Below are positions 37,070 to 61,668 of a DNA stretch of 64,000 nucleotides, in pieces. The stretch is from Methanolobus psychrophilus R15 (GTDB lineage: Archaea; Halobacteriota; Methanosarcinia; Methanosarcinales; Methanosarcinaceae). The stretch lies in assembly GCA_000306725.1 (NCBI GenBank), contig CP003083.1, positions 558,001-622,000 of the forward strand, written 5' to 3'. The position numbers were made by a program, and so were the translations under genes. Below the pieces are notes generated by a model that worked only from the letters and a program-made list of their open reading frames with translations, did no database searches and was not told the origin of the DNA. Within the stretch, counting starts at the first letter, position 1; each line of letters opens with the position of its first letter.

Positions 37070-38557
37070 ATGGAGAAATTGCCCGATTCAATACGCACAA
37101 TGGTAATTGAAGATGTACTTGTACAAGAGTGGTTAAACGATTATAGTAAACCAAAGACCATACAAAATTATTTAGAAGGTTTAACCCGATTCATGAGATT
37201 TGTGCATCAATATGATAATGGTAGCATGAAAGAGAAAACACCTACTGATATGATTGTAGATGCAATATATGAACAAGGTTTAGCATCTCAGGAAATGGAT
37301 AAATCATCTCCATCTGCCATTAAAGCGGCATTATTGAAAAAAAATGAAATTGGAAAAACAACGCAATTAATGAATGAATACAAAAGGCATCTTGATTCTA
37401 TGGGATATACTAAGCGAACCATAAACGGTAGACTGTTTAATGTGGCTTCGTTCTACAAAAAGCATAAGGTTATTCTCGAAGTCAAAATGTCTATTAAGAA
37501 TGTTGAAACCTCTATTCCAAACCGCAAACCGCCTGAACTGGAAATGTTAATCAATTTCTTTAAAAACTTGAATTTAAGGAACAAGTGCATAATGGGTATA
37601 GGGTTAAGTTCAGGACTTGCAAGGGCAGATATTGTTACATTAACAGTGGGAGAATTTAAGAGAGGATGTAAAACATACATTGATGATGAAGGAAACGAAA
37701 TACAATATTGTGTTTTAAATCGTCAAAGGCACAAATCCGAAGTACAGCACCATACATTCATTTCGCCTGAAACTTGCGGGTTGATAGACCAATACATACA
37801 ATGGCGCAACAATCCAAATATTACACGTCATCAACTTATAAAAATATATTCAGATGATGATGCACTTTTTATACATGATGCCTTAAAACCAAAATATGTA
37901 AAATCGGTAAAGTATGATACACAGGGCAATGTGATTACATATGATGATTCCATAAGGGCAATTTCAGGGCATACTATTTCACACCTGTATATAAGAATGA
38001 ATGAATCAATGGGCATGGAAAAAAATGCAAATGGTTTCTATCCTATTAGAAGTCATAATATGCGAAGGTATTTCAGTAATATTATGAAAAGTTCATATGT
38101 TAAGGAACATTTCATGGGACATAAGGGCAAGGACTCAATAACAACTTATGAAAATTTTGAAGAAGATGAAGCACTTGCCGAATACATGAAATATATTGAT
38201 GATTTGACTATGCTTGATAAGGTCATTATATCTTCATCTACTGCACCATCTATGAAGAAAATGAAGATGGAATTGGATGAAGAAAAGGCAAGGAATCTTG
38301 AAAACGAGAAACGTATTGCACGTCTCGAATTAATGTCTGCCAAAGCAGTCAAACCAAGGAAGAAAAGACTTGCTGAATATCAATCTGATGTATCTGCACA
38401 GGAATATCTAAAATATGGCGGCATTGATGATGGTGAACCATTTCCAGATGATGAAGGGGAAATAACGTATCACACTTCGATGTCAGAAGCCGAAAGGAAA
38501 GAACTGAAAAAGGCAATGCAAGACAATCCAGATGTGGATATTGAAGGGGATGTTTAA
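37070..38557 (+). CDS. Tyrosine recombinase (integrase-like)
   Basis: The 495-residue protein has an N-terminal SAM-like core-binding domain (about residues 15-145, with KPKTIQNYLEGLTRFMRFV), then the catalytic domain: R in SSGLARADIVTL (about 185-196), H-x-x-R in RSHNMRRYF (about 324-332), H in FMGHKG (about 346-351), and the nucleophile Tyr in TTYENF (about 356-361). The first 140 residues and the 100-residue C-terminal extension with a coiled coil (EEKARNLENEKRIARLE) make it longer than most integrases. It probably excises or integrates the AT-rich region that begins here. No clear ribosome site precedes the ATG, so it may be leaderless. Confidence 0.88.
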   Translation: MEKLPDSIRTMVIEDVLVQEWLNDYSKPKTIQNYLEGLTRFMRFVHQYDNGSMKEKTPTDMIVDAIYEQGLASQEMDKSSPSAIKAALLKKNEIGKTTQLMNEYKRHLDSMGYTKRTINGRLFNVASFYKKHKVILEVKMSIKNVETSIPNRKPPELEMLINFFKNLNLRNKCIMGIGLSSGLARADIVTLTVGEFKRGCKTYIDDEGNEIQYCVLNRQRHKSEVQHHTFISPETCGLIDQYIQWRNNPNITRHQLIKIYSDDDALFIHDALKPKYVKSVKYDTQGNVITYDDSIRAISGHTISHLYIRMNESMGMEKNANGFYPIRSHNMRRYFSNIMKSSYVKEHFMGHKGKDSITTYENFEEDEALAEYMKYIDDLTMLDKVIISSSTAPSMKKMKMELDEEKARNLENEKRIARLELMSAKAVKPRKKRLAEYQSDVSAQEYLKYGGIDDGEPFPDDEGEITYHTSMSEAERKELKKAMQDNPDVDIEGDV

Positions 38558-38637
38558 CACCCCTCTAGGAATGTTTTAAATTGCACTGGTTGAGTTTGTG
38601 AGGGATTAGGCATACTTACATACCCATATTTCATATT

Positions 38638-39261
38638 TCATTTTAACACCCATTCTCCAAATTCATATTTATATCCCCAATTATTCAAATTCTTTTTAAT
38701 AGTTGTTGGAGTTGTATTGTAGAGTTTGGATATCGCATTACAGGATAATCCTTTTTGTATATACTCAACCACCTGTTTCTTTGGAAATTCTTTTGGTTTC
38801 CGATGGCACATTTTACCATTTTTCTCTGCATTAATCCTGCCCGCCTGCATTCTCTCAACAATAATATTCCTTTCAAATTCGGCAAATGCTGCCATTATTT
38901 GCAATGTAAGTCTACCCATGCTTGATGTTGTATCAATTGGTTGAGTGCTTGCGATAAAATAAACATTTAATTCTTTTAATTTTTCTATGCTTATTAATAA
39001 ATCCATTGTAGACCTTGCGAATCTATCAATTTTTGTAACAATTAAAATATCAAATATGCCTAATTTTGCATCACTAAGCATCCTTTGGAATTCTGGTCTT
39101 CTATCGTCTTTACCACTCCAACCGGAATCAACATATTCTTTTACAATTTCATAATCTTTGAGGGAACAATATTTCTGTAACTCTTGCCTTTGCATGAGTA
39201 TTGATTCTTCCTGTTTATCCGTTGATGTACGGATGTAAATTGCTACGTTTTTTGTCATCAT
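38638..39261 (-). CDS. Serine recombinase (resolvase/invertase family)
   Basis: The 207-residue protein has the catalytic Ser in the motif VAIYIRTSTDKQEES (about residues 6-20), the conserved SGWSGKDDRRPEFQRML and the core VTKIDRFARSTMDLL. It ends with a short helix-turn-helix (LSCNAISKLYNTTPTTIKKN). This matches small resolvases and invertases. It faces the tyrosine recombinase convergently, 80 bases from its end. The start is ATG 39261 or 39258; the DNA upstream is AT-rich with a TATA-like box and no ribosome site, consistent with a leaderless transcript. Confidence 0.9.
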   Translation of the reverse strand: MMTKNVAIYIRTSTDKQEESILMQRQELQKYCSLKDYEIVKEYVDSGWSGKDDRRPEFQRMLSDAKLGIFDILIVTKIDRFARSTMDLLISIEKLKELNVYFIASTQPIDTTSSMGRLTLQIMAAFAEFERNIIVERMQAGRINAEKNGKMCHRKPKEFPKKQVVEYIQKGLSCNAISKLYNTTPTTIKKNLNNWGYKYEFGEWVLK

Positions 39262-42732: not shown

Positions 42733-43155
42733 TTTGTTGCAGCGATGAGAAAACAACATCCTCGACCCAAATACATCAGAAAATTCCTAAGTCAACTAAA
42801 TATATAGTGGCGGAGATATGCTATTATGTATAATTCACACTTGTTAAGGGGAATGACTCTTATGCAATGAACCCATTTTAGAACTAGCTACAAGGTAAGG
42901 TGAAGCGTCTGCTACACCACCAAGCTTTAAGGCGACTCTTTCCTAACAAGCCCAAAATATTTCCCAATAGCATTTAAGTCTTAACCATCCCGATTGTCTC
43001 TATTTTTTGACCTGTTAGTTACAAATTTAAACCTTTTACTTCATTCGGATATCATATATATTATAAAATTCCCATTTAATTCAGTATAAATAGCAATAAC
43101 GTTATAATCTATGATTAAACGTTTGAAGAAACAGCTACTTGTATGGGGTGTTCAA
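42733..43155. other. Interval with a degenerate copy of the two-hairpin element
   Basis: Between 42896 and 42978 the order caccaccaagctttaaggcg, ctctttcctaacaag and atatttcccaat follows the two conserved elements at 44030 and 44134. The first stem, however, no longer pairs well. No gene is supported. Confidence 0.45.
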
Positions 43156-43941
43156 TTGAAGCAACTACTACTTGATGTGATGTTTGCCTCTGATAAGAGA
43201 AAAGAGGTTTTATTGCTGTTAAATGAGGGCTCTCAGGAGATGGAATATCTCGTAAAGTGTCTTGGTACCAATAGACAGGCATTACTTCCTCAGGTAAAAA
43301 TACTTGAGAATCATTATCTTATTTCCCATCAAAGAGATGTCTACGAGCTGACATCTATCGGGAAGCTTTTAGTTGAAGAATTTATTCCATTGCTAGGCAC
43401 AATTGAATTTTTTAGTGTTGATATTGAATATCTTGGAACTCAAAAGCTCGAATTCATACCTCCTCACCTTTTGAAAAGGGTAAAGGAAATTGGAAGCAGT
43501 GAGGTTATAACCCCTGAGATAGCAAATATGTATGACCTTAATGAAGAGTTTCACGAGGCCTCAAAAAAATCTAAATCCGTATTAATAGTTACTTCATTCA
43601 TCTACCCAAATTTCTGTGAATTAACTCTCGAACTTATAAGTAACAATGTAGAAGTGTACTTTATCATTTCTCCTGAATTAATGGACAAACTGAAGGGGCA
43701 CAAGTATGTTCATGTTAACAAACTTCTAGAGAGTAATCTGATTCATATATATGTTTATTCTAAAGAGTTGGATTTTCTTTTTATGGGTTGCAATGATTAT
43801 TACCTGATAGTAAACCCGCTGTCACAGGATGGGACAACCGACCGTAAATATATTATTTCTAATAAAAAGGAGGCTCTTAAATGGGGACGTGATTTCTTTG
43901 AATATTATCTGAAAGATTCAACACTAATCACAGAACTTTAA
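43156..43941 (+). CDS. DUF1724/FilR1 winged-helix regulator (array copy 3)
   Basis: The conserved N-terminus (LKQLLLDVMFASDKRKEVLL) begins at a TTG at 43156 with GGGGTG five bases upstream. The frame also has an ATG at 43111, which would add 15 basic residues not seen in the paralogues, so I prefer 43156. The winged helix TNRQALLPQVKILENHYLIS is followed by DUF1724 with EYLGTQKLEFIPPHLLKRVK and the tail KWGRDFFEYYLKDS. It has drifted more than its neighbours: the DYWGTH motif is EYLGTQ. Confidence 0.87.
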   Translation: MKQLLLDVMFASDKRKEVLLLLNEGSQEMEYLVKCLGTNRQALLPQVKILENHYLISHQRDVYELTSIGKLLVEEFIPLLGTIEFFSVDIEYLGTQKLEFIPPHLLKRVKEIGSSEVITPEIANMYDLNEEFHEASKKSKSVLIVTSFIYPNFCELTLELISNNVEVYFIISPELMDKLKGHKYVHVNKLLESNLIHIYVYSKELDFLFMGCNDYYLIVNPLSQDGTTDRKYIISNKKEALKWGRDFFEYYLKDSTLITEL

Positions 43942-44029
43942 TCAAAACATTGTTGCTATGAAAAATTATTGGTTTACGAGAACGTTTTATACAAGAAAAA
44001 CCAATTTTGACTTACTTGAGAATTAGGAT

Positions 44030-44100
44030 GAGGTGCTTGGAAAACCACCACGCTTTGAAGCACCTCTCTCCTTACAAATCCGAGATATTCCCCAATATCC
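44030..44100 (+). ncRNA. Covarying two-hairpin element, copy A
   Basis: Stem 1 pairs GAGGTGCTT (44030-44038) with AAGCACCTC (44058-44066) around a conserved loop containing CCACCACGCTTT. The linker TCTCCTTAC-AATCC follows. Stem 2 pairs GATATT (44084-44089) with AATATC (44094-44099) across CCCC. Copy B at 44134-44204 has different bases in both stems, but they still pair, so the structure itself is conserved. The strand is my choice from the CCCC loop and is not proven. I do not recognise the family. Confidence 0.55.
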
Positions 44101-44133
44101 CTTAAGTTTTTACTTACGGTTGTGTACTAGGAT

Positions 44134-44204
44134 GAGGCACCCGGAAACCACCACGCTTTAGGGTGCCTCTCTCCTTACGAATCCGAGATGTTCCCCAACA
44201 TCTC
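44134..44204 (+). ncRNA. Covarying two-hairpin element, copy B
   Basis: Stem 1 pairs GAGGCACCC (44134-44142) with GGGTGCCTC (44161-44169); stem 2 pairs GAGATGTT (44185-44192) with AACATCTC (44197-44204) across CCCC. Relative to copy A, the changes TGCTT to CACCC and AAGCA to GGGTG are compensatory, and so is the A-to-G / T-to-C change in stem 2. Loop and linker are nearly identical. Confidence 0.55.
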
Positions 44205-44221
44205 TCAACTAATCCACTCCC

Positions 44222-44256
44222 GTGTTGCGGTTCATTTTCCCCACGACCCGCAACAC
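44222..44256. terminator. Long hairpin after the RNA-like pair
   Basis: GTGTTGCGG (44222-44230) pairs with CCGCAACAC (44248-44256). The loop is 17 bases and contains CCCC again. It may be a terminator or a third structured piece; there is no strong T-run directly after it. Confidence 0.4.
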
Positions 44257-44489
44257 ATACTAAGTCATATTGTTATTTAACATAACTCTTTATTAATAAT
44301 ATACCTAGTAATAATTGCATGTTGAAGTTGTTTTTCAATCAGGGTTTAAATCATGCATGTTAATAGATATTCTTTCTGGATTGGAAGATTTGATAGTATT
44401 GTAATTTCAGTTTACATTTGCTATATTCCTATATATAATAAAACAAATATGGTAATGCATTTTCTTAAAAACAAACTTTTAAAAAAGAT

Positions 44490-45284
44490 TTATGTACCAA
44501 ATAATGGCACAGAATCTTTTAAGTAGTATTCAAATAGTTCCTTTCCCCACTTAAGAGCACTTGGGTTAAAACATAAAATGTATTTAGTATCAAAGTCTCC
44601 ACCGTTTTTTAATGGCCGTATCTTCGTGTAATAATCATTACAGGTAAAAGATGCACATTTCATTTCTTTATTATAAACATAAAAATGTACCAAGCTATTA
44701 TCTATTAACTTCTTAAAAATAGTGGGATTATCACTTTTAATTTTGGCAAGCAAATCTTCGGTGATAATGAAATGTAGATGCACATTATGTGAAATAAGTT
44801 CAAAAAAGAAATCAGCAAAGTTTGGATGAAAGAATGTGGTTACTCCATAGACAGATTGAGAAGTTTTTGAAGCTTCATAAAAATGATTACTCTCTTCATA
44901 AGTTTCCATGATTGAAGGACTTATCACATTACATTTCCCAATTTCATTTATCCTTTGTAAAAGGTAAGGAGGGATGAAATCAAAGTTATGAGTTCCCCAA
45001 TAATCAACATCTCCGTCCAAAACATCAAGAGTGCTTAAAAGAGTAGTCATCTCATCAACAACGAGTTTTCCGATAGTTGTTAATGCATAGTTATCCTTAT
45101 AGTGTTCAATAAGATAGTGCTCTTCTAATATTTTCATTTGTGGAAGCAGTGATTGTCTGGAAGTATTATGATATTCAAGAATAACCTCCATTTCCTTAGG
45201 ACCACCCTTCAAAAACAGTAGTATATTCTTCCTTTTCTCGGATGCGAATATCACGTCAAGTAACGGCTTTTTGATAATTGGCAT
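44490..45284 (-). CDS. DUF1724/FilR1 winged-helix regulator (array copy 4)
   Basis: The 264-residue protein starts MPIIKKPLLDVIFASEKRKN. The winged helix has TSRQSLLPQMKILEEHYLIE; DUF1724 has DYWGTHNFDFIPPYLLQRIN; the tail is KWGKELFEYYLKDS. It is the only array member on the minus strand and converges on the RNA-like elements at 44.0-44.3 kb. It is closest in wording to the regulator at 2315-3100 (KKPLLDVIFASEKRK). Its target is unknown. Confidence 0.88.
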   Translation of the reverse strand: MPIIKKPLLDVIFASEKRKNILLFLKGGPKEMEVILEYHNTSRQSLLPQMKILEEHYLIEHYKDNYALTTIGKLVVDEMTTLLSTLDVLDGDVDYWGTHNFDFIPPYLLQRINEIGKCNVISPSIMETYEESNHFYEASKTSQSVYGVTTFFHPNFADFFFELISHNVHLHFIITEDLLAKIKSDNPTIFKKLIDNSLVHFYVYNKEMKCASFTCNDYYTKIRPLKNGGDFDTKYILCFNPSALKWGKELFEYYLKDSVPLFGT

Positions 45285-61455: not shown

Positions 61456-61668
61456 TTAAGCAACTTCGCCAAAAGCGAATTTACTCATAACTTTGTTAAC
61501 TGTGATAGTTACTTCATCACCGACTTTGGTGTTAGGGACAAAGACCACGAATCCGCTTACTCTTGCGATTCCGTCTCCTTCTCTTGCAATATCTTCAATT
61601 GTTACATCATAATTTATTCCAGCTTCTACTGGAGCAGTTGAATTCATGTTACTAAACAAATATTTCAC
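61456..61668 (-). CDS. TRAM-domain RNA-binding protein
   Basis: This stand-alone TRAM domain has the family core YDVTIEDIAREGDGIARVSG then FVVFVPNTKVGDEVTITV and NKVMSKFAFGEV. TRAM proteins of methanogens bind RNA and act as cold-responsive chaperones. The start is uncertain: GTG at 61668 (with GGAC upstream) or ATG at 61647 (MNSTAPVEAGINYD), the latter giving the usual length of about 63 residues. It is monocistronic, with AT-rich DNA upstream. Confidence 0.9.
   Translation of the reverse strand: MKYLFSNMNSTAPVEAGINYDVTIEDIAREGDGIARVSGFVVFVPNTKVGDEVTITVNKVMSKFAFGEVA

Follow-up and report, generated by a model that had tools for sequence, protein, structure and literature searches.

The paired hairpins near 44 kb of the window (the whole 64,000-nucleotide stretch of the Methanolobus psychrophilus R15 genome analyzed here) belong to a single copy of a small structured-RNA gene that is present in many copies in some Methanolobus. 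The structured family is new. A search of Rfam 15 returned no matching family at the gathering score and nothing relevant at relaxed thresholds. On balance we favor the reading that its members are structured non-coding small RNAs (sRNAs) with G-rich loops, that this multicopy family is restricted to part of the genus Methanolobus, and that the RNA is read from the minus strand from its own promoter and acts in trans at low temperature. A defined structure, support from covariation, a promoter that has been mapped, and numerous natural paralogues rarely come together in an archaeal sRNA family. Here they do, and the host is an organism with published dRNA-seq at two temperatures.

Structure, copies, and covariation

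The preliminary description reported two direct copies of a hairpin unit, starting at about 44029 and 44133 with a spacing of 103 to 104 nt. Both are seen in the sequence, as are the loop (AAACCACCACGCTTT) and linker (CTCTCCTTAC-AATCCGAGAT) common to the two units and the exchanges between their stems (GAGGTGCTT/AAGCACCTC versus GAGGCACCC/GGGTGCCTC, and GATATT/AATATC versus GATGTT/AACATC). Fold energies of the two blocks gave z scores of -4.4 and -5.5 on the plus strand and -4.0 and -5.1 on the minus strand, matched by none of 200 shuffles. The hairpin at 44222, which had been listed as another hairpin, is real (fold z -6.3), but the search for relatives showed it to belong to the same conserved element. 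The two units and this hairpin (H3) thus form one element, with the full unit order H3, linker, H2, linker, H1; some copies, the window copy among them, have a second H2-H1 module. The features of the window copy and its surroundings are as follows.

42889..43031, minus: decayed sRNA copy (covariance model 42.8 bits, E 7e-11)
43111..43941, plus: FilR1/DUF1724-family regulator gene, convergent with the sRNA (PF08350, E 4e-22)
43985..43992, plus: TATA-like box TTTTATAC, convergent, a possible antisense promoter (TTTWTA clustering outside the element)
43996..44000, minus: T5 run GGTTTTTCTTG, candidate sRNA terminator (sequence; resembles T-runs in many FilR1-linked copies)
43996..44262, minus: predicted sRNA transcript of about 265 nt, with a putative start near 44258-44262 and a putative stop near the T-run (promoter spacing, U-run, two structured units)
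44030..44066, minus: hairpin H1b of the second unit (sequence and alignment)
44084..44099, minus: hairpin H2b of the second unit (sequence and alignment)
44134..44169, minus: hairpin H1a, with GAGGCACCC stem, inner helix AAGC/GUUU, and loop GUGGUG (loop nearly invariant; covariation in helices 3-5)
44185..44204, minus: hairpin H2a, GAGAUGUU GGGG AACAUCUC (98.7% of cells paired; 4/6 pairs change on both sides)
44207..44221, minus: single-stranded linker GGGAGUGGAUUAG (GAGTG invariant in 28/28 aligned full copies)
44222..44256, minus: hairpin H3, the 5' hairpin of the predicted RNA, with GUCGUGGGGAA in its loop (z -6.3; double-sided changes at 6/6 model pairs)
44274..44286, minus: predicted sRNA core promoter, BRE/TATA-like, GTTATGTTAAATA (GGTTAWATA conservation, fixed spacing)
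44287..44347, minus: conserved upstream regulatory block, candidate cold box or operator (column conservation to -70)
44490..45284, minus: FilR1/DUF1724-family regulator gene, upstream of the sRNA promoter (PF08350, E 1e-25)

With the 261-base element as the query, about 18 further places were found in the host genome. The search for relatives placed the element in 11 of 60 genomes, all from a single genus, which a motif scan of named genomes identified as Methanolobus. Twenty-eight full copies were used to build a covariance model (R1), which found 23 to 24 copies in the host genome, nine of them scoring above 140 bits and the next at 119. The third, decayed copy that had been pointed out in addition to the tandem pair was also recovered with a covariance model. 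R1 was positive in 11 of 26 Methanolobus genomes, and the number of copies per genome ranges from 9 to 24 in some of these methanogens. It gave no match in the remaining family and class, searched as 112 genomes and then as 238 genomes from 39 genera, 38 of them other than Methanolobus. Exact-motif matches outside the genus look like chance for a 17-base pattern in 257 Gb.

In the alignment of 68 copies to the model, both partners change in 18 of the 25 base pairs (mean of 7.6 after shuffling), such cells number 135 compared to 38.6 after shuffling, and the covariation score is 0.257 compared to 0.142; none of 500 shuffles reached any of these values, although kinship among the copies inflates such tests. 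The pair and type counts are less affected by kinship, as is a control in which the register is slid: 96.3% of cells are paired in register, and only 33 to 54% when it is shifted. Throughout the alignments the stems vary while the loops and linkers stay nearly invariant. The proposal of a structured RNA with compensatory changes is therefore upheld, and the covariance-model search that had been suggested as its test yielded homologs with strong further covariation. A coding role was considered and rejected: the AUG in the H3 loop opens frames of 7 to 45 codons that have no common stop.

Strand and promoter

The preliminary description drew the element on the plus strand and confined it to the hairpins; its structure stands, but the evidence favors a minus-strand RNA of about 265 nt with its own promoter, in a family that is multicopy and genus-wide. 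A conserved promoter, AGGTTTAGGTTAWATA, lies at a fixed distance before the 44222 hairpin. The sequence GGTTAWATA (at least 7 of 9 positions) is found in 80 of 84 copies, 20 to 24 nt upstream of the start of the model in 78 of these 80 and 22 to 23 nt upstream of it in 75. Further conserved blocks reach upstream to about -70 from the TATA box, and comprise an ATTAA block, an A-rich block, and a distal dyad related to TTAACGCCGTTAA. A sequence-only model of the sRNA promoter (R2) matches the window at 44347-44270 with 32.8 bits. R2 likewise matches the sequence ahead of small zinc-ribbon genes, which have the same orientation, and so the region behaves like a promoter read in the direction of the minus RNA.

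Base-pair intermediates point the same way. Outside the loop helix, G-U states number 56 if the minus strand is the RNA and 23 if it is the plus strand (48 and 18 after redundancy reduction), and the loop helix itself contains an almost invariant G-U pair on the minus strand that would be a C-A mismatch on the plus strand. The promoter spacing, the orientation of the zinc-ribbon promoters, the G-U asymmetry, and the loop helix all favor the minus strand, from which the element is very likely transcribed as a non-coding RNA.

The alternative that retains most weight, which we nonetheless regard as improbable, is that the element gives rise to both a sense and an antisense structured RNA from convergent promoters. 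TATA-like sequences (TTTWTA or CTTTTATA) on the plus strand cluster 36 to 55 nt outside the H1 end, with 35 occurrences among 54 non-redundant copies and few elsewhere. Most non-redundant copies have an CTTTTATA box there, those lacking FilR1 included. The plus strand is also T-rich after H3. The R15 transcriptome study reports that some intergenic regions encode sRNAs antisense to each other (PMC5378194). The CU-rich plus RNA (CCACCACGC, CUCUCUCC, UUCCCC, CCACUCCC) would then be either the active molecule, masking ribosome-binding sites, or an antidote to the minus RNA. Against this, the spacing of the plus box varies (mostly 42 to 54 nt), its columns are less conserved than those of the minus promoter, and the G-U intermediates favor the minus strand.

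Several other features of these promoters deserve mention. In many of them the arms that flank the ATTAA block near the TATA box, in the A4 columns, stay complementary while their sequence changes (GTTC/GAAC, CCGAT/ATCGG, CCTCTG/CAGAGG), as if each copy had a dyad of its own. At 887330-887603 of the host genome, two sRNA-type promoters face each other within a single intergenic region. An H3-like hairpin comes after each of them (TTGCGAGTATGGGTCACTCGCAA, TTGCGGGTTGTGGGG...), an arrangement that would give overlapping convergent RNAs. The matches of the promoter model upstream of zinc-ribbon genes are at 2063386, 2931285, and 2862624; this family of genes (MKQLKECPECKARLHDMDQNIQHCEICGYW...) has about 6 to 7 copies in the genome and a structured-looking leader (GTCAGGATGGGG...), and may consist of co-regulated cold genes. 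The best match of the promoter model in the genome is at 2927989-2928074 (minus), where a degenerate leader resembling H3 and a small ORF (MKSLKTWEEISDIDYDGPVAASND...) come after the promoter; the site may hold the remains of an sRNA that has become a leader.

FilR1 genes and genomic context

The neighboring genes had been called DUF1724 regulators, and indeed they encode the FilR1_middle domain (PF08350, formerly DUF1724). Linkage to this family extends beyond the window. A FilR1 domain is found no more than 600 nt away from 9 of the 20 R15 loci, compared to a mean of 0.34 and a maximum of 3 in 2,000 random placements; across six genomes, the same is true of 45 of 84 copies, and 24 of these 45 are convergent with the FilR1 gene. 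The R15 copies are intergenic and have diverse neighbors, and FilR1 linkage is not obligatory, since roughly every second copy lacks a FilR1 gene in its vicinity.

A dyad, TTAAC-N3-GTTAA (at least 9 of 10 positions), occurs upstream of 14 of 82 FilR1 genes compared to 2.0 in shuffled sequence, and upstream of 10 of 66 sRNAs compared to 1.1; as the dyad was noticed before it was tested and marks only a subset, we treat it as a lead. Methanosaeta FilR1 binds its own promoter (PMC3991700). The FilR1-family regulators that sit beside half of the copies probably bind the shared dyad, and their control of the sRNA promoter is possible, if doubtful. We would propose only tentatively that a FilR1 paralogue and an sRNA make up a proliferating two-part module, in which the regulator controls the sRNA promoter through the shared dyad and has the sRNA (possibly together with a convergent antisense RNA) as its post-transcriptional arm. 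If so, one archaeal genus would hold a large family of transcription factor/sRNA pairs that expanded together for the cold response.

As separate observations, perfect or near-perfect TTAACNNNGTTAA dyads, candidates for an autoregulatory operator, are found upstream of several FilR1-family genes. A linker motif, GGGAGTGGA, upstream of one FilR1 gene (window position ~3150, minus) was discarded as chance, as it does not recur in 34 FilR1 leaders. A tyrosine-recombinase-like integrase and a small serine resolvase lie beside the FilR1 array at window positions 37070-39261. Near FilR1 genes at the ends of the host contig (3072719-3072769 and 1-35), the point at which the circular chromosome record was opened falls within an sRNA copy.

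Two further readings of the element are both very unlikely. The first is a spacer between convergent genes or a 3' UTR element (a terminator or stabilizer) of the FilR1 genes, in keeping with the fixed gap to the FilR1 stop codon seen in many copies, which is 71 to 78 nt with one unit and ~180 to 190 nt with two. However, 31 of the 84 copies have no FilR1 gene in the examined flank and stand beside unrelated genes, and the element has its own promoter on the far side. The second is a cis-acting leader or riboswitch ahead of genes. A small number of copies do face a same-strand gene (FilR1 in 6 of 84 copies), and a decayed relative precedes the small ORF at 2927989, but most face the 3' end of a convergent gene or unrelated genes.

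Least probable of all is a mobile or selfish DNA element (a MITE, a REP-like sequence, or IS200/IS605-type hairpin ends) whose hairpins are recognized as DNA. The sequence is dispersed, multicopy, and hairpin-bearing, and the flanks of one R15 pair (1537 kb, 2445 kb) are duplicated; against this, the promoter falls within the conserved block, the units repeat in direct orientation, and copies occupy the same places in 3 to 4 species at the cation-efflux, cupin, and TIR loci. At these loci the copies are positional orthologues, with RNA identity of 74 to 97%, above the promoter identity in most of the orphan cases. No transposase was found among the neighboring genes scanned, and collections of phages, plasmids, and viral contigs gave no match to the element. 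The positional orthologues and the absence from these collections argue against active mobility, and the ends of an inverted-repeat transposon, offered in the preliminary description as the alternative to an RNA, gain no support from direct repeats, a joint promoter and RNA block, and neighborhoods shared by 3 to 4 species.

Proposed function and relation to known small RNAs

In the mechanism we favor, the minus strand would be transcribed from the conserved promoter with its long upstream regulatory block, and the folded RNA would consist of hairpin H3 at the 5' end, followed by a linker rich in G and by either one or two [H2-H1] modules. The loops GUGGGG, GGGG, and GUGGUG and the linkers GGGAGUGGA and UAGGAGA hardly vary, whereas the stems drift but keep pairing through compensatory changes. 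These G-rich loops and linkers may pair in trans with CU-rich segments of mRNAs at low temperature, or may serve as decoys that draw off an RNA-binding protein or the 30S subunit (SD-like AGGAG); we regard pairing with mRNA and a protein or 30S decoy as about equally plausible. Additional gene copies and tandem modules would raise the dose of the sRNA. Action in trans, by whichever route, seems likely.

A dRNA-seq study of M. psychrophilus R15 described "nine highly conserved" cold-induced sRNAs that share a "cold box" upstream of the promoter (Li et al. 2015, PMC5378194). Gene positions in the host genome agree with the R15 numbering: the sHsp genes at 862.6 kb and 2103 kb fit Mpsy_0869 and Mpsy_2176, and the TRAM gene in the window fits Mpsy_0643. 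The likeness to the family described here lies in the organism, the intergenic location, and the high conservation as a group, and the number equals that of the intergenic family copies above 140 bits; the conserved block that reaches to -70 is a candidate for the shared motif. The accessible text of PMC5378194 is silent on sequence, structure, a family, FilR1 linkage, and species range. With nine strong copies and a conserved block upstream, the family fits the published description, and so, on this circumstantial link, it is quite likely that the family is cold induced and identical to the nine sRNAs; the upstream block is probably the "cold box." The earlier claim of novelty accordingly holds for the structured family, and not for its transcripts, which were probably already detected in M. 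psychrophilus (PMC5378194). A one-line observation from 2015 thus becomes a testable family, which suggests a link between the cold response and the large, mostly uncharacterized expansion of FilR1/DUF1724 regulators in methanogens.

The closest studied system is sRNA162 (with sRNA171) of Methanosarcina mazei, an RNA of ~190 nt whose three stem-loops are accompanied by a single-stranded linker, encoded beside an ArsR-type regulator gene (PMC3510493). It works by pairing with mRNAs, has a linker with a known mRNA target, and occurs in 1 to 2 copies; it was duplicated along with the regulator, and its promoter is conserved (PMC3510493). The Methanolobus family is like it in having stem-loops and a regulator as neighbor. 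No homology between the two was detectable with R1 in 238 genomes of the class at the sensitivity used, and the Methanolobus family differs in its 9 to 24 copies and its invariant G-rich loops. Bacterial sponge RNAs of the CsrB/RsmZ type display a single G-rich loop motif over and over on repeated hairpins. The Methanolobus RNAs resemble them in the repeated G-rich loops and in having tandem units and multiple gene copies that raise the dose, but the loop motif itself differs, and we know of no CsrA in archaea.

The cold-TRAM CCTW motif showed a modest excess (18 of 73, compared to 4.5), which we do not use as evidence of sharing. A small TRAM-domain protein, probably Mpsy_0643, a published cold-induced RNA chaperone, is encoded at window positions 61456-61668 on the minus strand, 17 kb from the sRNA.
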